Of a stretch of 64,000 nt of DNA, positions 10,251-21,373 are shown one piece after another. Source of the stretch: Spirosoma telluris (GTDB lineage: Bacteria; Bacteroidota; Bacteroidia; Cytophagales; Spirosomataceae). The notes beneath the pieces are model-generated. The model saw nothing but the letters and a program-made list of their open reading frames with translations. It did no database searches and was not told where the DNA came from. How positions within the stretch are numbered: position 1 is the first letter of the stretch; every line of letters starts with the position of its first letter. The translations under genes and the position numbers were made by a program. Where the stretch lies: NCBI GenBank assembly GCA_003259005.1, contig QLII01000001.1, positions 7,059,001 through 7,123,000 on the forward strand. The letters run 5' to 3'.

Positions 10251-11340
10251 TTAAGCCTTCACTTCTTCCAATACTGGATAATCGGTATACCCTTTTTCGC
10301 CGGGCGTATAGAACGTCGAAAAGTCAGGTTGATTTAATTCGGCTCCGGTTTTCAGGCGTTCTACAAAATCGGGTTGGCAATAAACGGGCGACCAAACGCG
10401 ATCAGATCCGCTTTCCCGTTTTTCAAAGCGGCTTCGGCTCGTTCGGCATCATAACCTCCGCTCAGAATGATCGCCCCTGAATAGGCATCGCTGATCGCAT
10501 CGACAATGGCCGGATCGACAGCCGGTGCGCCCATCGACGCGTGATCGACCAGGTGAACGTACACGACATAGTCAGACAATTTTTGGGCTATGTAGTGATA
10601 GATTTTGTCGTCGTCTGGCGAATAAGGCATATCGTTAAAGACACCATAGGGCGACAGTCGGATGCCCGTCTTTTCTTTTCCGATGGCCTGTGCTATCTGT
10701 TCGGCAATCTCCAGCGCAAAACGCGCATTGTTTTCAGCCGAACCGCCATATTCGTCGGTACGTTTGTTCGAGGTAGACCGCAGAAACTGCTCAACCAGAT
10801 AACCATTCGCACCGTGAATCTCTACACCGTCGAAACCAGCGTCAATCGCGTTTTTGGCGGCCTGTACAAACTCCTGAACCGTTTTCTTTACTTCATCCGT
10901 GGTCAGCGCGCGGGCGTTGGTTGCTCCAGCATCCCTTCCGTATCTGTATAAATCTGTCCGGCAGCGGCAATGGCCGAAGGCGCTATTACTTCACCACCTT
11001 CGTGCATATTAGTCACATGACTAACACGCCCGGTGTGCATCAACTGGGCGAAAATTTTACCTCCTTTTGCATGAACCGCATCGGTAACGTCTTTCCAGCC
11101 AGCGATTTGTGCTTTTGTATAGAGACCCGGAACGCGGGCATAGCCATTGCCATTGGGGGAGGGGGCTATGCCTTCGGTTATAATCAGACCTGCCGACGCG
11201 CGTTGTGCATAATAGGTGGCCATAATCGGCGTTACTGCATGGTCAGTTGTGGCCCGGTTACGAGTCATAGGAGCCATGACAATGTGGTTTTCAAGGGTCA
11301 GGTTGCCCAGTACAGCTTTCGAAAAAAGTTTATTTGCCAT
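10251..11340 (-). CDS. Old Yellow Enzyme family alkene reductase (two frameshifts in this sequence)
   Basis: FMN-dependent NAD(P)H:flavin oxidoreductase that reduces activated C=C bonds, of the NemA/OYE group. The start MANKLFSKAVLGNLTLEN is followed by APMTRNRA, a flavin-site motif, then AQLMHTGRVSH. After a slip at 10912-10914 the next frame reads DGVEIHGANGYLVEQFLR, containing the active-site His-x-x-Asn, and RTDEYGGS. After a slip at 10371-10373 it ends TDYPVLEEVKA at 10251. Two added bases give 363 residues, the normal family length. It is downstream of, and in the same orientation as, an ArsR-type regulator, which probably controls it. Likely role is detoxification of electrophiles. Confidence 0.88.
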
Positions 11341-11898: not shown

Positions 11899-12467
11899 AT
11901 GGAAACGCAGCAACAATTGACCGGAAAGAAAGTGGCGATTCTGCTAACCGATGGTTTTGAACAGGTTGAAATGACCGAACCGCGTAAAGCCTTACAGGAC
12001 GCCGGGGCAACCACGCACTTGATTGCACCTAAAGGGGCGACGTAAAAGGATGGGACGAAACCGAGTGGGGTGACACATTCCCTGTTGATTTGCCTATTGC
12101 GGGTGCCGACCCAAACCAGTATGATGCCTTGCTCTTACCGGGAGGAGTCATGAACCCCGACAAACTACGCACCGACCCCAAAGCTGTACAATTTGTCCGG
12201 CATTTCTTTGAGGCTCACAAGCCAGTTGCCGCCATTTGTCATGCACCGATCATGCTTATCGAAGCTGGTGTAGTTAATGGGCGAAAACTTACTTCATACC
12301 CTTCTATTCAAACTGATTTGAAAAATGCCGGTGCGAACTGGATCGATGAAGAAGTCGTAACGGATCAGGGGCTGGTTACCAGTCGTAGACCTGATGATAT
12401 ACCAGCCTTCAATCGCAAAATGATCGAAGAAATTCGGGAAGGCAAACACGACCGGCAACATGCCTAA
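11899..12467 (+). CDS. PfpI/DJ-1 family protein (frameshifted in this sequence)
   Basis: A class I glutamine-amidotransferase-like protein of the PfpI/DJ-1 type, related to general stress protein 18 and to protein deglycase/peptidase candidates. The start [25 protein letters not shown] leads to a slip at the GGGG run 12034-12037. The second frame reads [20 protein letters not shown], then [17 protein letters not shown] with the nucleophilic Cys, and [21 protein letters not shown]. One added G makes 189 residues, the family's usual size. The acidic Glu of the active site is in FEQVEMTEP. Probably cytosolic and stress related; the reaction is not settled for this family. Confidence 0.88.
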
Positions 12468-12528: not shown

Positions 12529-14919
12529 TTATTCGCTTCTGAGGCTCTTCACCGGATTCAACAGAGCGGCCCTGATTGCCTGATAACTGATTGTCAATAA
12601 AGTGATTGCCAGCGCCATGATGAGCACGATCAGAAATACGCCAATCTGAATGTTTATTTTATATGTGTAGTCTTCCAGCCACTGACTCATGGCGTACCAG
12701 GCGATGGGTGAAGCGACTAGACAGGAAATAATGACTAGCAGCACGAAGTCTTTAGACAGTAGCCCCCACACATTCGATATACTGGCGCCCAATACTTTCC
12801 GAATGCCAATTTCCTTAGTCCGTTGCTCGGCCATGAAGGAGGCCAGACCAAATAAACCCAGACACGAAATAAAGATGGCCAGCAAAGAAACAATGGCCGA
12901 CAGGTTGCCAATAAGCTCTTCGTAACTGAATTTTTTGGCGTATTCAGTATCCGAAAACTTATAATCGAACGGAAAGCCAGGATTGTATTTATCGAAAATA
13001 GGGGCCATTTTTTTGATTGCTTCCGATGAGCCTACGTTTGGATTGATGCGGACACAGACAACGCTTACCCAGTCTTTTTCAAACACAATGGTCAACGGTG
13101 AAATAGCACGGTAGGGCGATTCCATCATGATATCGGGAATTACACCAACCACTTTCCGATCTTTGCCATTCCATTTAAGCATTTCACCAACTGGATTTTT
13201 CAGCTTCATGCGTTTAACCGCTGCCTCATTTAAAATGACACCGGAGGAATCGGTCGTAAAGTCTCTGGAAAAATCACGCCCTTCCTTGAGTTTAATGCCT
13301 ATGGTTTTGATGTAATCAAAATTGGTGGCAATGGTACTAAAAACAACAGATTTTTCTTCGGGCGTTGAGCCTTTCCATTCCCAGCCATTGTTGTTGCTCC
13401 AGATTTGGGTTGGTGGCGAATTGGACTTACAAATAGAGGTTACCACACCTGAGGCCAATAATTCATTGCGAAGTGCATCAAAATGGTCAATTAAGTCTTT
13501 CGAGGAATTGACGGAAATGAGGCCTTTATTCGTAAAGCCAATGGGCCGGTTTTTGCCGTGTTGTATCTGCTGATAAATGATGATGGTCCCAATCATCAGC
13601 ACAATGGAAAAAGTAAATTGGATAACGACTAGAATTTTGCGTGGCAACGACGCACTTTTACCCACATGAACGCCCCCTTTGAGAATCTTCACTGGATTGA
13701 AGGACGATAAATAAAGCGCCGGGTAACTGCCCGCCAGCAAACCCGTGAAGATGGTGAAAACCAGCATGATGCCCCAGAAAACGGGATTGCCGAACTGAAT
13801 GGTCATCATTTTTTCGGTCAGTGTATTGAAGTAAGGGAGCGAAATCAACACGATAACCAACGCCAATAGTAGGGCCATAAAGGCAATCAGGGTTGACTCA
13901 CTTAAAAACTGCCCAATGAGCTGTTCGCGACCCGATCCAACAGCTTTGCGAACCCCCACTTCTTTCGAGCGTTTTTCGGAACGGGCCGTGCTGAGGTTCA
14001 TGAAATTGATGCAGGCAATGACTAGCACAAACAAGCCGAAAATGCCAAACAGGCGTACATATTTAATGAAGCCCCCCGTATTTTTCCCTTCAGTAAAATC
14101 AGAATAGAGCCGCCATTTTGCCATCGGATGCAGAAACACTTCGGGCTTTATGAGTTTCACCGTGTTTACATCATTTGATAAATGGGATAATACCACATCT
14201 TTTATTTTCGCATTGGTTTGTGCTGGATTGATGCCGTCTTTGAGCTGTACATAGGTCGCCCAGGAGTTATTTCCCCAATTCGGTTTATGGAATTTTGCAA
14301 TCCAGTCATAGATCTTCTCCTGCAAGCTCCAGGGAAGCAGATAATCAAATTGCAGGGTCGCATTTTTGGGCTGTTTGGCCACCACGGCCGTTACTTTTAA
14401 ATCGACCGTATTATCCATTTTTAGGGTCTTCCCAATGGGGTCCTGATTGCCGAAAATGGCCTTGGCCGTTTCATCCGTCAGTACAATGGAATAGGGTTCT
14501 TTTAGTGGATTCTTATCGCCATTCAGAATGTTCAGCGAAAACATATCAATGGCATCTTCTCCAATGAAATGACCATCTTTTAGAAATTTCTGATTGCCAA
14601 CTACCAATGACCGATTACTACCCCAATCACACATAGCGACAGCCTTAAAGTCCGGGTATTTGGACTTTAGTTCTTCGCCCATCGGGAAGGGTAAAGCGTC
14701 CTGTGTACCCCTTCGACCGTCGAAGGTTTGGTGCATTTTGACCTGGTAAAGGGTTTTGTAATTTTTGTGGTGTTTGTTGGCGGATAACTCATCGTCGATC
14801 CAGATACCAATTAGCATCGCCACAGCCATGCCCACAGCCAATCCGCCAATATTAATGGCCGAGTATGATTTGTTTTTGACCAGATTCCGAAAGGCGATTT
14901 TTAAATAATTACGGATCAT
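12529..14919 (-). CDS. FtsX/MacB-type ABC transporter permease, copy 2
   Basis: Inner-membrane permease of the MacB/FtsX group, about 796 residues from MIRNYLKIAFRNLVKNK. It has two FtsX-like halves. Each half has the N-terminal membrane helix and periplasmic MacB-PCD domain, then a three-helix block: GLFVLVIACINFMNLSTARSEKR with EVGVRKAVGSGREQLIGQFL, and later CLGLFGLASFMAEQRTKEIGIRKVLGASISN. An in-frame ATG at 14964 lies at the predicted promoter, so 14919 is preferred. It is highly similar (roughly 85-90% by eye) to the next permease upstream but lacks that protein's N-terminal prefix. No ATPase gene is adjacent. It probably exports a lipophilic or peptide substrate, or signals envelope stress. 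Confidence 0.9.
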   Translation of the reverse strand: MIRNYLKIAFRNLVKNKSYSAINIGGLAVGMAVAMLIGIWIDDELSANKHHKNYKTLYQVKMHQTFDGRRGTQDALPFPMGEELKSKYPDFKAVAMCDWGSNRSLVVGNQKFLKDGHFIGEDAIDMFSLNILNGDKNPLKEPYSIVLTDETAKAIFGNQDPIGKTLKMDNTVDLKVTAVVAKQPKNATLQFDYLLPWSLQEKIYDWIAKFHKPNWGNNSWATYVQLKDGINPAQTNAKIKDVVLSHLSNDVNTVKLIKPEVFLHPMAKWRLYSDFTEGKNTGGFIKYVRLFGIFGLFVLVIACINFMNLSTARSEKRSKEVGVRKAVGSGREQLIGQFLSESTLIAFMALLLALVIVLISLPYFNTLTEKMMTIQFGNPVFWGIMLVFTIFTGLLAGSYPALYLSSFNPVKILKGGVHVGKSASLPRKILVVIQFTFSIVLMIGTIIIYQQIQHGKNRPIGFTNKGLISVNSSKDLIDHFDALRNELLASGVVTSICKSNSPPTQIWSNNNGWEWKGSTPEEKSVVFSTIATNFDYIKTIGIKLKEGRDFSRDFTTDSSGVILNEAAVKRMKLKNPVGEMLKWNGKDRKVVGVIPDIMMESPYRAISPLTIVFEKDWVSVVCVRINPNVGSSEAIKKMAPIFDKYNPGFPFDYKFSDTEYAKKFSYEELIGNLSAIVSLLAIFISCLGLFGLASFMAEQRTKEIGIRKVLGASISNVWGLLSKDFVLLVIISCLVASPIAWYAMSQWLEDYTYKINIQIGVFLIVLIMALAITLLTISYQAIRAALLNPVKSLRSE

Positions 14920-14952: not shown

Positions 14953-15088
14953 TATGCTACCCACTTGCCTAGCAAATAAATTGCCAACTCGCCAAAAGAT
15001 CGTTTAGGCCGCGTAGGGAGGGTTTTTGACGGGAGAGGTAAACTAATGGCTGTCCATAAACGGACATAGTCTGTACGATTCAGGACAG
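14953..15088 (-). promoter_or_regulatory. Sigma-54-type promoter with upstream activator dyads, copy 2
   Basis: On the minus strand TTGGCAATTTATTTGC (within 14970-14987) has GG and GC dinucleotides separated by ten bases, the sigma-54 -24/-12 pattern. About 80-110 bases upstream are two dyads, TGTCCGTTTATGGACA and TGTCCTGAATCGTACA, 21 bases apart start to start. The whole 136-base block is repeated without gaps at 18238-18373. It lies just before permease copy 2, after the terminator hairpin of copy 1. Promoter type is inferred from the spacing and from the duplication. Confidence 0.7.
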
Positions 15089-15098
15089 CTTTTTAGTT

Positions 15099-15164
15099 AA
15101 ACACAGCGCCCCGGAGGACACAGAGATATTGGTCTTTTTCTGTGTTCTCCGGGGCGCTGTGTTT
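15099..15164. terminator. Long hairpin after permease copy 1
   Basis: Arms of 26 bases at 15099-15124 and 15139-15164 pair with a single mismatch (core CAGCGCCCCGGAG). On the minus strand it starts 12 bases after the stop codon of permease copy 1 and before the promoter block of copy 2, so it separates the two transcription units. Confidence 0.8.
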
Positions 15165-15175
15165 ACTAATTCTAC

Positions 15176-17857
15176 TTATTCGCTTCTGAGACTTTTGACG
15201 GGATTCAACAACGCGGCTTTAATCGCCTGGTAACTGATTGTCAATAAGGTGATTGCCAGGGCCATCATAAGCACAATCAGAAACACACCCGCCCCAATCG
15301 TTATTTTGTAGGTATAGCTTTCCAGCCACTGATTCATGGCGTACCAGGCAACGGGCGAAGCGATTAAACAGGAAATAATGACTAACAGCACGAAGTCTTT
15401 AGACAGTAGCCCCCACACACTAGTTACGCTGGCCCCCAATACTTTCCGAATGCCAATTTCTTTGGTTCGTTGCTCGGCCATGAAAGAAGCCAGACCAAAT
15501 AAACCCAGGCAGGAAATGAAAATGGCCAGTACCGAAACGATTGCCGACAGGTTGCCAATGAGTTCTTCGTAGTAGAATTTTTTAGCGTATTCGGTATCCG
15601 AAAATTTATAATCGAAGGGAAAGCCAGGATTGTATTTATCGAAAATAGGGGCCATTTTTTGAATGGCTAGGGAAGGAGCCATTGCTGGATTAATTCGCAC
15701 GCAAAGGAAACTTACCCAATTCCTATCCTTTTCAAAAATAATAGTCAACGGCCGGACGGTCTGATAAGGCGACCATTCCACGACTATATCGGGAATTACC
15801 CCAACAACGGTTCGGTCTTTCCCTGCCCATTTGAGTATCTCGCCTACGGGATGTTTCAACCCCATTCGTTTGACGGCAGCTTCATTTAAAATTACTCCAC
15901 TGGAATCGGTTGTAAAGTCCCTCGAAAAATCACGTCCTTCCTTGAGTTTAATTCCCATCGTTTTGATGTAATCAAAATTGGTGGCAATGGTCGTGAAAAT
16001 GGCGGATTTATCTTCTGGTGTTGAGCCTTTCCATGACCAGCCACCATTGGAACTCCACCATTGAGTAGGCGGTGAATTGGACTTGCAAATAGAGGATACC
16101 GCTCCCGAAGCCAATAATTCATTGCGAAGCGCTTCAAAATTGGTCGTTAAATCATTAGAGGAACTGACGGAAATAAGGCCCTGTTTAGTAAAGCCAATGG
16201 GTCGGTTTTTGCCATGCTGCATCTGCTGATAAATGATGATGGTACCAATCATTAGCACAATGGAAAAGGTGAATTGTACAACGACCAGAATTTTGCGTGG
16301 CAATGACGCACTTTTACCCACATGAACGCCCCCTTTGAGAATCTTCACTGGATTGAAGGACGATAAATAAAGCGCCGGATAGCTGCCCGCCAGCAAACCC
16401 GTGAAGATGGTGAAAACCAGCATGATGCCCCAAAAAACGGGATTCCCGAATTCGATGGCCATCGTTTTTGTCGTAAGTGAATTGAAATAAGGGAGCGAAA
16501 TCAAGACCATACCAAATGCTAGTACCAGGGCCATAAAGGCAATCAGGGTTGACTCGCTCAAAAACTGCCCAATGAGCTGCTCACGGCCCGATCCAACGGC
16601 TTTGCGAACCCCTACTTCCTTCGCCCGTTTTTCGGAACGAGCGGTGCTGAGGTTCATGAAATTGATGCAGGCTATAACCAGGATAAACAAGCCAAAAATG
16701 CCAAATAACCGAACGTATTTAATGAAGCCCCCCGTATTTTTCCCTTCAGCAAACTCGGAATATAAACGCCATTTTGCCATCGGATGTAGGAAAAGTTCGG
16801 GCTTTACGAGTTTTCTCGTATTAGGGTCATTTGATAAATGGGATAATATCACATCTTTTATTTTGGCGTTGGTTTGTGCTGGATCGATGCCGTCTTTGAG
16901 CTGAACAAAAACGCCCCAGCCATTATTTTCCCAATTTGTTTTTACATATTTAGCTACCCAGTCATACATGTTCTCCTGCAAGCTCCAGGGAAGCAGATAA
17001 TCAAATTGAAGCGTGGCATTTTTAGGCTGTTTGGCCACTACAGCCGTTACTTTTAAATCGACCTTATTATCCAGTTTGAGAATCTTGCCAATGGGATCTT
17101 GCTGGCCAAAAAGTGCCTTGGCCGTTTCGTCCGAGAGTACAATGGAATAGGGTTCTTTTAGTGGATTCTTATCGCCATTCAGAATGTTCAGCGAAAACAT
17201 ATCAATAGCCTCCTCGCCGATGAAAAGTCCTTGCTTAAGGAATTTTTGATTGCCAACGATCAACGACCGATTGCCCTCTCCTCTATCATACATAGCGACT
17301 GCCTTAAAGTCCGGGTATTTGGACTTTAGTTCTTCGCCTACCGGAAACGGCAACGCATCCTGCGTACCTCGTTGGCCATCGAAGGTTTGGCTCAGTTTGA
17401 CCTGGTAGAGAGTCTTATAGTTTTTGTGGTGCTTATTGGCCGACAATTCATCATTGATCCAGATACCAATCAGCATCGCCACAGCCATGCCCACAGCCAA
17501 TCCACCAATGTTGATGGCCGAATACGCTTTGTTTTTGACCAGATTCCGAAAGGCGATTTTTACATAATTGCGAATCATAGTAGGATGAAAGAAAAAAGGG
17601 TTAGAAACGTCATTATATCTGGTGTACCGGGCTTTGAAATTGACATTAGGTTCTCGTCGCCAGAGCCTTGGGTGAAGCAATAGGAGTAAATCCACTACGT
17701 AGAGCAGCCGGGCTTTGGGGTAGCCATGTCTCTGGGCTCGTTTTTGGAACAACTCATCCATATCTCCCTGAATCTCTTCCCGTAGATGCGGGGCGGTAAT
17801 TCGCTCCAGCAGGCGTTGCGCCCAGCCTGGCGGACGATTTGTTTGTTTCTGGCTCAT
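15176..17857 (-). CDS. FtsX/MacB-type ABC transporter permease with permease-prefix domain, copy 1
   Basis: An 893-residue permease. Residues 1-80 are a soluble prefix (RLLERITAPHLREEIQGDMDE and a short hydrophobic stretch) known from PadR-linked permeases of Bacteroidota. From MIRNYVKIAFRNLVKNKAYS onward it matches copy 2 almost throughout, with two FtsX-like blocks and the ending LLNPVKSLRSE. Its start overlaps the stop of the PadR gene by four bases (ATGA), so the two are co-transcribed and probably translationally coupled. Together with PadR this is the complete unit; copy 2 looks like a later duplicate that kept the promoter but lost the regulator and prefix. Substrate unknown. Confidence 0.92.
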   Translation of the reverse strand: MSQKQTNRPPGWAQRLLERITAPHLREEIQGDMDELFQKRAQRHGYPKARLLYVVDLLLLLHPRLWRREPNVNFKARYTRYNDVSNPFFFHPTMIRNYVKIAFRNLVKNKAYSAINIGGLAVGMAVAMLIGIWINDELSANKHHKNYKTLYQVKLSQTFDGQRGTQDALPFPVGEELKSKYPDFKAVAMYDRGEGNRSLIVGNQKFLKQGLFIGEEAIDMFSLNILNGDKNPLKEPYSIVLSDETAKALFGQQDPIGKILKLDNKVDLKVTAVVAKQPKNATLQFDYLLPWSLQENMYDWVAKYVKTNWENNGWGVFVQLKDGIDPAQTNAKIKDVILSHLSNDPNTRKLVKPELFLHPMAKWRLYSEFAEGKNTGGFIKYVRLFGIFGLFILVIACINFMNLSTARSEKRAKEVGVRKAVGSGREQLIGQFLSESTLIAFMALVLAFGMVLISLPYFNSLTTKTMAIEFGNPVFWGIMLVFTIFTGLLAGSYPALYLSSFNPVKILKGGVHVGKSASLPRKILVVVQFTFSIVLMIGTIIIYQQMQHGKNRPIGFTKQGLISVSSSNDLTTNFEALRNELLASGAVSSICKSNSPPTQWWSSNGGWSWKGSTPEDKSAIFTTIATNFDYIKTMGIKLKEGRDFSRDFTTDSSGVILNEAAVKRMGLKHPVGEILKWAGKDRTVVGVIPDIVVEWSPYQTVRPLTIIFEKDRNWVSFLCVRINPAMAPSLAIQKMAPIFDKYNPGFPFDYKFSDTEYAKKFYYEELIGNLSAIVSVLAIFISCLGLFGLASFMAEQRTKEIGIRKVLGASVTSVWGLLSKDFVLLVIISCLIASPVAWYAMNQWLESYTYKITIGAGVFLIVLMMALAITLLTISYQAIKAALLNPVKSLRSE

Positions 17858-18192
17858 GATACACCTCCTCCAAAAGCAGCTTTAGGAATATCGGCCCAGA
17901 GTTCATTCCGGATTCGTCGGGCTTCCTGCAAGACCTGCTCCCCAGCCGTAGTTACGGTAAACAGGCGTTTACGACGGCCTCCTCGTTCGGCAGTGGCCTC
18001 CCCGAATCGAGAGTGTACGAGCCTCTTTTCTTCAAGCCGCTGCATGGTTCGGTGCACCGCGCCTAAGCTCATAGGCCGTTCCAGGCGCTGACTGAGTTCT
18101 TCAACGACTGCCGCGCTGTAAGCGTCATCGTAAAGCAGGGCGATGGTCAGCAGAACAATTTCCTCAAATTCGCCTAGTTGAGTGCCTTTCAT
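17854..18192 (-). CDS. PadR-family transcriptional regulator
   Basis: A 112-residue winged-helix regulator. KGTQLGEFEEIVLLTIALLYDDAYSAAVVEELSQ is the PadR helix pair, and MSLGAVHRTMQRLEEKRLV is the recognition helix followed by the RRKRLFTVT wing and a C-terminal dimer helix. PadR proteins usually repress a neighbouring efflux gene and often themselves. Here it precedes the permease with a four-base overlap. The 136-base promoter block starts 46 bases upstream of its ATG. TATGC-N9-GCATA at 18238-18256, lying over the predicted transcription start, is a candidate operator. Confidence 0.9.
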   Translation of the reverse strand: MKGTQLGEFEEIVLLTIALLYDDAYSAAVVEELSQRLERPMSLGAVHRTMQRLEEKRLVHSRFGEATAERGGRRKRLFTVTTAGEQVLQEARRIRNELWADIPKAAFGGGVS

Positions 18193-18237
18193 AGCTAAAC
18201 TGTCTAATGAATTCTAGTCAATACACACGCACAATAG

Positions 18238-18373
18238 TATGCTACTCTTTTGCATAGCAAATAGATTGCCAACTCGAAAAAAGGTTATTTAGACCGCGTA
18301 GTATGGGTTTTTGTGGAAATAGACGAGCCAATGGCTGTCCATTACCGGACATAGTCTGTACGATTCGGGACAG
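18238..18373 (-). promoter_or_regulatory. Sigma-54-type promoter with upstream activator dyads, copy 1
   Basis: On the minus strand TTGGCAATCTATTTGC (within 18255-18272) has GG and GC separated by ten bases, as in sigma-54 -24/-12 elements. Upstream are dyads TGTCCGGTAATGGACA (18336-18351) and TGTCCCGAATCGTACA (18357-18372), 21 bases apart, placed about 100 bases from the expected start, as enhancer sites for an NtrC-type activator would be. The block drives the PadR-permease unit. The activator gene is not in the window. Confidence 0.7.
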
Positions 18374-19600: not shown

Positions 19601-19800
19601 GCGTGCAGGCCGACCCGATACATTAATACATCTACAATGTAGTTTGGACATTGATGCTTAGTCGATTTTCGCTCCTGTTTATACGGCGCAGCTAGAACGG
19701 GGTTGGGCCTAGATAAAGCGCATGTTCTGTTTGGGTATCTTTGGCATTGGAACGGCCCCCAACCGGAAATCATGAGCCGTGTCAATCCAAAACTAAATCA

Positions 19801-21270
19801 ATGAACATGCGCGATTACGATGCTGTTGTTGTGGGTTCCGGGCCAAACGGCCTGAGCGCTGCTATTGTGCTGGCACGGGCTGGTTTATCCGTGATCGTAC
19901 TGGAAGCCAGACCCACTATTGGCGGAGGAGCCAGCTCGGCAGAACTAACACTACCTGGTTTCGTGCATGATATTGGCTCGGCCATTCATCCGCTGGCGGC
20001 TGGCTCTCCCTTATTTCAGAGTTTACCCTTAGCTGAACACGGGCTGGAGTTTATTTACCCACCCATCTCTGCCGCGCACCCGTTCGATGGTGGCCGGGCG
20101 GCTACGCTCATTGGATCGGTGGAAGAAACGGCCCGCACGCTGGGTGTCGATGAAGTGGCTTACCGTACCCTGTTCGAGCCCGTTGTTCGGCACTGGCCTA
20201 CGATGGCTGCCGATATACTGGGACCATTACGTTTTCCCAAACACCCGCTCGATATGGCGCAGTTTGGTCTGGATGCTCTGCTTCCGTCGACCGTAGTGGC
20301 CAACCGATTTAAAACGACCGAAGCACGGGGCCTTTGGGCAGGTATGGCGGCTCACGCTATTCAACCGCTCACCAACCTGACTACGGCGGCTATTGCGCTG
20401 GTACTGATGACGGCGGGTCACCTACGCGGTTGGCCAATGCCAAAAGGTGGCTCACAATCCATTGCCAACGCACTGGCATCCTATTTTAAGTCGTTAGGGG
20501 GCGAAATTGAGGTTGACCGACCTGTTCGCTCTCTTCATGATCTGCCGAAAGCGCGGGTGGCCTTATTCGATCTTACACCAAAGCAACTGTTGTCCATTGT
20601 TGGTGACCGGTTTTCGAGTGGATTAGGGAACTGGATTTACCGGAGGCAACTGGAGCATTATCGCTACGGCCCCGGCATTTTCAAGATCGACTGGGCGCTG
20701 GATGGCCCCATTCCGTTTACAAACCCTGACTGCCGACGGGCTGGAACCGTTCACCTCGGTGGTACACTCGAAGAAATTGTTGAAGCCGAACAGCGAACCT
20801 TTGACGGTCAGCACCCCGACCGGCCGTATGTGCTACTGGCTCAACAAAGCCTCTTCGATCCCACCCGCGCCCCGGCGGGCAAGCATACTGCCTGGGCGTA
20901 TTGCCACGTACCCAACGGTTCGACAATAGACTGTACCGATCGAATTGAAAAGCAGGTTGAACGATTTGCACCGGGTTTTCGTGATCGGATTCTGGCTCGC
21001 CACACGATGAATACCGCCCAGGTTGAAGCCTGGAATCCAAATTACGTTGGTGGCGACATTAACGGGGGGATTATCGACATTGGTCAGTTATATACCCGTC
21101 CGACCCTTGGGTTAACTCCCTATCAAACATCGGAGCCGGGCATTTTCATTTGTTCTTCAGCGACGCCACCGGGCGGTGGTGTTCACGGGATGTGTGGGTA
21201 TCATGCCGCTCGTGTTGCGCTGCGGGAAGGCTTTGGAAAATCCGTGCCGGTAGAATTGACCCATGGCTGA
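19801..21270 (+). CDS. Phytoene-desaturase-like FAD-dependent oxidoreductase
   Basis: A 489-residue flavoprotein from the start MNMRDYDAVVVGSGPNGLSA, where the Rossmann GxGxxG motif begins at about residue 11; an in-frame ATG at 19741 would add an unneeded 20 residues. VIVLEARPTIGGGASSAELT completes the FAD-binding fold, and the C-terminus carries GIFICSSATPPGGGVHGMCGYHAA, the second FAD contact typical of the CrtI/amine-oxidase superfamily. Members include carotenoid desaturases and isomerases and pyridine nucleotide-disulfide family relatives. No carotenoid genes are adjacent, so the substrate is unknown. Confidence 0.88.
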   Translation: MNMRDYDAVVVGSGPNGLSAAIVLARAGLSVIVLEARPTIGGGASSAELTLPGFVHDIGSAIHPLAAGSPLFQSLPLAEHGLEFIYPPISAAHPFDGGRAATLIGSVEETARTLGVDEVAYRTLFEPVVRHWPTMAADILGPLRFPKHPLDMAQFGLDALLPSTVVANRFKTTEARGLWAGMAAHAIQPLTNLTTAAIALVLMTAGHLRGWPMPKGGSQSIANALASYFKSLGGEIEVDRPVRSLHDLPKARVALFDLTPKQLLSIVGDRFSSGLGNWIYRRQLEHYRYGPGIFKIDWALDGPIPFTNPDCRRAGTVHLGGTLEEIVEAEQRTFDGQHPDRPYVLLAQQSLFDPTRAPAGKHTAWAYCHVPNGSTIDCTDRIEKQVERFAPGFRDRILARHTMNTAQVEAWNPNYVGGDINGGIIDIGQLYTRPTLGLTPYQTSEPGIFICSSATPPGGGVHGMCGYHAARVALREGFGKSVPVELTHG

Positions 21271-21321: not shown

Positions 21322-21373
21322 AATACTGTTTTGTAGTATGTGTTTCTGGAAACACATACTACAAAACAGTATT
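21322..21373. terminator. Perfect 24-bp hairpin after the oxidoreductase gene
   Basis: Arms 21322-21345 and 21350-21373 are exact complements with a CTGG loop, beginning AATACTGTTTTGTAG. It lies 52 bases after the stop codon. A weaker pair, ACAGGATT and AATCCTGT, follows at about 21375-21419. The rest of the 369-base gap up to 21640 shows no gene. Confidence 0.8.

Follow-up and report, generated by a model that had tools for sequence, protein, structure and literature searches.

Under NtrC-type control, a phosphorylated activator bound to an upstream enhancer opens sigma-54 polymerase at a -24/-12 promoter. We analyzed a stretch of 64,000 nucleotides (the window; positions 7059001 to 7123000 of contig C1, QLII01000001.1) from the 9.09-Mb, four-contig genome of Spirosoma telluris, in which two FtsX-type permease units, here called A and B, are each preceded by a 136-base block that an earlier note had read as a sigma-54-type promoter with paired activator sites. 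The two blocks are real copies of an enhancer and sigma-54 promoter switch that recurs before many FtsX-type permeases, and the switch is probably under the control of one two-component activator whose gene lies elsewhere in the chromosome. The operator, the promoter, their spacing, regulon membership, conservation, and the adjacency of the activator in relatives were all computed here.

Among described systems, ZraSR, AtoSC, and NtrBC share with this regulon a -24/-12 element, paired upstream dyads, a receiver-AAA+-Fis activator, and a linked kinase. The present regulon differs from them in its operator (TGTCC-N6-GGACA), in a target set rich in FtsX/MacB-type permeases, and in its -12 box, which at most sites of this genome outside the window reads TTTG with C, T, A, or G as the next base. 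In the main text of a 2025 survey (PMC12316311), sigma-54 promoters are predicted before COG0577 permeases in Bacteroidia, Gammaproteobacteria, and Opitutia; these are ABC-type permeases including an FtsX-like family, and the authors claim the first evidence for their link to sigma-54. The pairing of promoter and permease is the same as here, but the passages on it name no activator or upstream operator, and the terms "UAS," "PadR," and "Spirosoma" do not occur in that main text. No account of the operator, the activator, or the PadR-containing units was found among the titles listed by the literature searches.

Two exporter families also bear comparison. The window permeases match the ADOP permease model (TIGR03434) over nearly its full length, and unit B shares the PadR partner of that family (TIGR03433), but the permeases score 298.1 and 302.2 bits against a cut-off of 622.3, and the window PadR scores 21.7 against the cut-off of 101.8 of the ADOP-type PadR model. 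Like MacAB and the darobactin system DarBC, the locus of the candidate activator described below holds an adaptor, an ATPase, and MacB-like permeases, but its permease and adaptor score far below the equivalog cut-offs. The regulon is real, large, and conserved; it belongs to a known kind, and there is one leading candidate for its activator.

The switch and its recurrence

Comparison of the two blocks located the dyads, which stand upstream of the predicted promoters as follows.

15072 to 15087, minus strand: unit A distal dyad of the enhancer, TGTCC-N6-GTACA, TGTCCTGAATCGTACA
15051 to 15066, minus strand: unit A proximal dyad of the enhancer, TGTCC-N6-GGACA, TGTCCGTTTATGGACA
14972 to 14987, minus strand: unit A predicted -24/-12 sigma-54-type promoter, GG-N10-GC, TTGGCAATTTATTTGC
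18357 to 18372, minus strand: unit B distal dyad, TGTCC-N6-GTACA
18336 to 18351, minus strand: unit B proximal dyad, TGTCC-N6-GGACA
18257 to 18272, minus strand: unit B predicted -24/-12 sigma-54-type promoter, GG-N10-GC, TTGGCAATCTATTTGC

Blocks A (14953 to 15088) and B (18238 to 18373) align without a gap and are identical at 109 of 136 positions. On the minus strand of both, the starts of the two dyads are separated by 21 bp. The promoter box, TTGGCA-N5-TTTGC, begins 100 bp from the start of the distal dyad and 79 bp from that of the proximal one, and its GG and GC stand ten bases apart, as in sigma-54 promoters at -24/-12. The layout described in the earlier note is thus borne out, spacings included. 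The note also took spacing kept in diverged blocks as a sign of function; the blocks differ at none of the 30 consensus positions, compared with 27 of the remaining 106, and the same layout recurs elsewhere. Transcription would be expected to start near 14960 in unit A and near 18245 in unit B.

The dyad search was made without use of the promoter. Genome-wide, TGTCC-N6-GGACA has 20 occurrences, compared with 4 for the reversed pattern, and the paired operator pattern (18 fixed bases) occurs exactly at 14 places, compared with none for its reversed control. When up to three mismatches are allowed, the paired pattern has 24 forward and 22 reverse matches versus 6 and 4 in the control. The earlier note would have given up its reading had the motif pair been no more frequent than chance or had the genome lacked rpoN; the pair exceeds chance by the counts above, and rpoN is present as one PF04552 match (E 7.9e-55). 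Across 148 genomes of the order, the paired operator has 46 matches at 43 distinct places in 10 genomes, and the control has none.

The promoter follows the operator at a constrained distance. Within 96 oriented sites from this genome and related loci, the strict promoter pattern has 45 matches, compared with 0.995 in total for mononucleotide shuffles. All but one of these lie 66 to 70 or 77 to 81 bp from the proximal dyad (44 of 45, the remaining one at 112), and these two distance classes differ by about ten bases, or roughly one helical turn. A scan of a wider collection matched at least 115 stretches, of which 80 were examined (the named loci), and many Spirosoma records are among the operator matches listed from it. 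The named loci contain 106 oriented matches, palindromic places being counted on both strands; 64 of the 106 have a promoter score of at least 12 at the target distances, compared with 1 and 0 at two sets of control distances. At 60 of the 80 loci, at least one permease, PadR gene, HlyD gene, or strong activator match was recognized.

A hand calculation predicts about 7 chance matches for the full collection. Among the matched records, those titled Clostridia, Actinomycetota, Planctomycetota, Aminicenantes, Cloacimonadota, Tenebribacter, and Acidipila reach a promoter score of at most 8 at the target distances, and a metagenome-assembled genome (MAG) of Acidobacteria reaches 11; a permease lies behind the dyads at the Acidipila locus. 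In a "Proteobacteria" MAG (L181) the promoter score is 13, at a distance of 79 bp, with no family gene recognized. A Lysobacteraceae MAG (L216) has the operator, promoter, HlyD, activator, and kinase together; being a MAG, this sequence may be misbinned.

In S. telluris itself, the arrangement is not confined to two genes but is found at about 27 sites, the majority of which stand before permeases. A canonical promoter accompanies 24 of the 27 oriented sites, although two sites (2890225 and 3771642) were accepted partly on their promoter and are not independent promoter evidence. A single dyad matched at C1:56224 had neither a partner dyad nor a promoter and was dropped. The genome has 122 MacB_PCD matches, of which 121 are on contig C1, as are 26 of the 27 sites. 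Permease-domain runs on their own strand are headed by 20 of these 26 sites, and the runs, which were chained with gaps of up to 4 kb so that operon membership is approximate, contain 87 of the 121 MacB_PCD matches, compared with 2.15 for random placement and 0 on the opposite strand. PadR genes above the Pfam cut-off number 17, comprising 12 of low score (27 to 42 bits) and 5 of high score (60 to 81 bits), a division chosen after the result had been seen. The operator and promoter lie upstream of 11 of the 12 low-scoring genes, the exception being 1706099, and of none of the 5 high-scoring ones; the dyad upstream of the low-scoring gene 2890433 has two mismatches. The PadR frame at 3907968 itself contains a weak dyad-like match, which we attribute to chance.

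Three of the permease-less sites precede copies of a protein of 124 residues that appears to carry a signal peptide, and the others precede various other genes. One of the latter encodes a protein that we take to be DUF4097-like; its first 90 residues have no Pfam match. The 124-residue proteins (L020, L024, and L025, and one match from genome G029, L114) carry the same switch without a permease. At L153, L154, L199, and L219 the first gene is also 124 residues long, a likeness by length alone. Dense arrays of FtsX/MacB-type permeases occupy C1:3659-3697 kb, 3748-3782 kb, and 1857-1915 kb (L286 to L289 and L021 to L023). The array permeases are often split into two or more open frames, which may be decayed copies or sequencing errors.

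The candidate activator and its rivals

Both units very likely belong to one sigma-54 regulon, driven through the paired dyads by a histidine kinase and the following activator.

C1:3653581-3654966: candidate activator, receiver-AAA+-Fis, with PF00072, PF00158, and PF02954 above cut-off

The earlier note had placed both permeases under one activator, probably encoded outside the window, and this candidate, found through relatives that flank the operator, supports that view. It has the receiver, AAA+ sigma-54 interaction, and Fis-type helix-turn-helix domains of the NtrC type; its best NCBIfam models are a PEP-CTERM response regulator, AtoC, and ZraR, all below cut-off. A histidine kinase gene (HATPase_c) lies about 2.5 kb away with three frames between, and in two genomes of the order, G010 and G140, the kinase is directly adjacent. 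On the other side, a run encoding HlyD, an ATPase, and permeases (the core operon) begins at 2.2 kb. In these two genomes, a relative of the activator (63% identical in G010, 55% in G140) and a gene for HlyD or a permease have the operator between them, and in both a promoter accompanies it. Among 29 other activator loci examined with 1.5-kb flanks, six (L127 to L131 and L134, L130 being G010 again) have paired dyads and a full promoter, scoring 13 or 14 at 68 to 80 bp.

The named loci point the same way. A strong activator match is present at 16 of the 80: six from Pontibacter, two each from Chitinophaga, Larkinella, and Runella, one from Sphingobacterium, and the remainder from MAGs of Flavobacterium, Bacteroidaceae, and Lysobacteraceae. 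Weak activator-profile matches (about 20 bits) at L211 and in the second frame of L230 were left out of this count. In all 16, the best full-length match in the S. telluris genome is the 3.65-Mb protein, at 40 to 67% identity, and 13 have a promoter score of at least 12. A homolog at E<=1e-120 is found in 10 of 10 operator-positive genomes compared with 63 of 138 negative ones.

The aligned recognition helix reads ALYR in all 22 activators that lie beside clear paired dyads (six from the flank search and sixteen named). Where the fetched flank has no dyads, the helix of family members is SLYR in 17 of 21 cases and ALYR in 4, three of the latter coming from genomes that have the operator elsewhere (G029, G045, and G059). 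Within loci of the order, a TGTCC pair is near 6 of 10 ALYR-type activators versus 1 of 19 SLYR-type ones, an association that would fit direct recognition. The SLYR-type activators form a sister group (L133 and L135 to L152) that is mostly without the TGTCC operator. Ten palindrome words tried on its 19 loci gave no common operator, with isolated matches to TGTCC, TGTTC, and TGTGC (one each), and the strict promoter pattern is present in none of the 19.

Several observations weigh against control by the 3.65-Mb activator. In S. telluris the site before HlyD is degraded, its proximal dyad having one mismatch and half of its distal dyad being lost, and no canonical promoter was found after it. 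The expectation of an NtrC-type gene adjoining the motif therefore holds in relatives, where relatives of the activator flank it, but not in this genome, and because of this degradation the link to the activator rests on relatives. No operator was found at the activator locus in G029 and G059 (same genus), G045, G055, or G129, and the activator locus of G004 has a weak dyad without a promoter. Three of the 16 named activator loci (L192, L223, and L232) are without a promoter at the target distance, and the weak dyads at L139 and L142 adjoin activators with an SLYR helix, again without a promoter. The helix comparison also follows phylogeny. Within the genome, 34 of the 121 MacB_PCD matches lie outside dyad-headed runs, and 3 of the 27 sites are without a canonical promoter, two of them (3684404 and 3780129) being variants of score 12 and the third (3657029) ambiguous.

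It is unlikely that the sigma-54 switch is real but answers to another enhancer-binding protein of this genome, above all a relative at 628 kb. The genome has 19 PF00158 matches, corresponding to about 11 intact activators, and the degraded site near the 3.65-Mb gene leaves room for one of these. The 628-kb protein (L068:7515-8890; C1:627.5-628.9 kb) is a second receiver-AAA+-Fis regulator accompanied by kinase and ABC transporter genes, its helix is likewise ALYR, and one of the 16 named activators, that of Bacteroidaceae L232, is closer to it in the C-terminal half. In the same length-matched comparison, however, the 3.65-Mb protein is the closer of the two for the other 15 and for the activators of G010 and G140, and the kinases of these two genomes find their best match in the 3.65-Mb kinase. 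The gene at 628 kb is broken into two overlapping frames, and a search of the surrounding 16 kb yielded no dyad pair at the thresholds used. Across 161 kb of flanks, the ten other regulators of this genome yielded one loose dyad.

That the dyads are instead operators of a repressor or of PadR, with the TTGGCA boxes a coincidence or part of an ordinary promoter, is highly improbable. Dyads are common for dimeric repressors, and the low-scoring PadR genes do mostly have one upstream, but at many sites the gene that follows is a permease, HlyD, or a small gene, with no PadR present. The promoter lies 66 to 81 bp downstream of the dyads in two helically spaced classes, as in activation at a distance. 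The Bacteroidota primary promoter has TTTG at -33 and TAnnTTTG at -7, which the GG-N10-G spacing does not fit. Finally, the idea that the blocks are a mere functionless trace of recent duplication, to be expected between permeases identical at 691 of 796 residues, is next to untenable, as the block differences avoid all 30 consensus positions and the same layout before other genes and in other genera already contradicts it.

Units A and B and their surroundings

The two units that carry the switch in the window, and the element between them, are as follows.

12529 to 14919, minus strand: unit A permease with two MacB_PCD and two FtsX stretches, 796 amino acids, start inferred
17854 to 18192, minus strand: PadR-family regulator, first gene of unit B (PF03551, 30.8 bits against a cut-off of 27)
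15176 to 17857, minus strand: unit B permease, 893 amino acids, with permease prefix domain 2 at its N terminus (NF038404, 65.7 bits against a cut-off of 35)
15102 to 15161, minus strand: hairpin after the unit B permease and before enhancer A, arms 15102-15123 and 15140-15161

For unit A, the ATG at 14919 was taken as the start because the listed GTG at 14964 would leave almost no leader. In unit B the PadR gene and the permease frame overlap by 4 bases. As the earlier note had described, one of the two promoter-bearing units is without both PadR and the prefix domain: this is unit A, for whose permease the profile scan reported no NF038404 domain. The PadR-prefix-permease unit and the permease-only unit would then be diverged copies that have both kept the switch. 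The hairpin has 22-base arms with one mismatch, judged by eye; it looks terminator-like and perhaps insulates the two units from each other.

Elsewhere in the window, two genes (11899-12467 and 10361-11340) are apparently broken into two frames each; they are presumably DJ-1/PfpI-like and old-yellow-enzyme-like, respectively. A long perfect inverted repeat at 21326-21369 lies downstream of frame 19741-21270, which we take to be oxidoreductase-like.

Proposed mechanism and meaning

In the mechanism we propose, the histidine kinase would phosphorylate the 3.65-Mb activator, which would bind the paired dyads, an enhancer located about -80 to -127 relative to the start, and remodel RNA polymerase-sigma-54 held at the TTGGCA-N5-TTTG promoter, opening it at -24/-12. 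In relatives, the same switch would drive the operon beside the activator (HlyD or permeases), which suggests that the core operon and the activator itself may be under its control. The targets in S. telluris would be PadR-permease units (about a dozen), arrays of permeases alone, and certain small exported proteins. Because the core operon is MacB-like, the signal is perhaps envelope or antimicrobial stress. PadR, as the first gene of its operon, may add local feedback repression, a possibility against which the short leaders speak (22 to 64 nt for the listed PadR starts).

More tentatively, and in our view doubtfully, one activator may switch a modular exporter in which a single adaptor/ATPase pair serves some forty scattered ATPase-less permeases, a number that follows from the 87 MacB_PCD matches at two per permease. 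The permeases would be exchangeable components of this exporter, each of them transcribed from the same sigma-54 switch and some tuned by a PadR of their own. Most MacB-type permeases in the fetched loci have no neighboring ATPase. A close homolog of the core ATPase is found among the fetched dyad loci at the core locus only, from which this shared-ATPase reading derives; one further ATPase match (L019, 37% identity) points away from its dyad-headed unit. The genome has 9 homologs of the core ATPase at E<=1e-30. The degraded switch at the adaptor/ATPase operon in this genome counts against a shared exporter.

With the operator defined and one candidate activator in the lead, control of the permease set becomes testable. 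If the proposed control by the 3.65-Mb activator is true, loss of that one activator should silence much of the permease set of S. telluris. The same pair offers a candidate activator and enhancer for the link between sigma-54 and COG0577 permeases put forward in the main text of PMC12316311.

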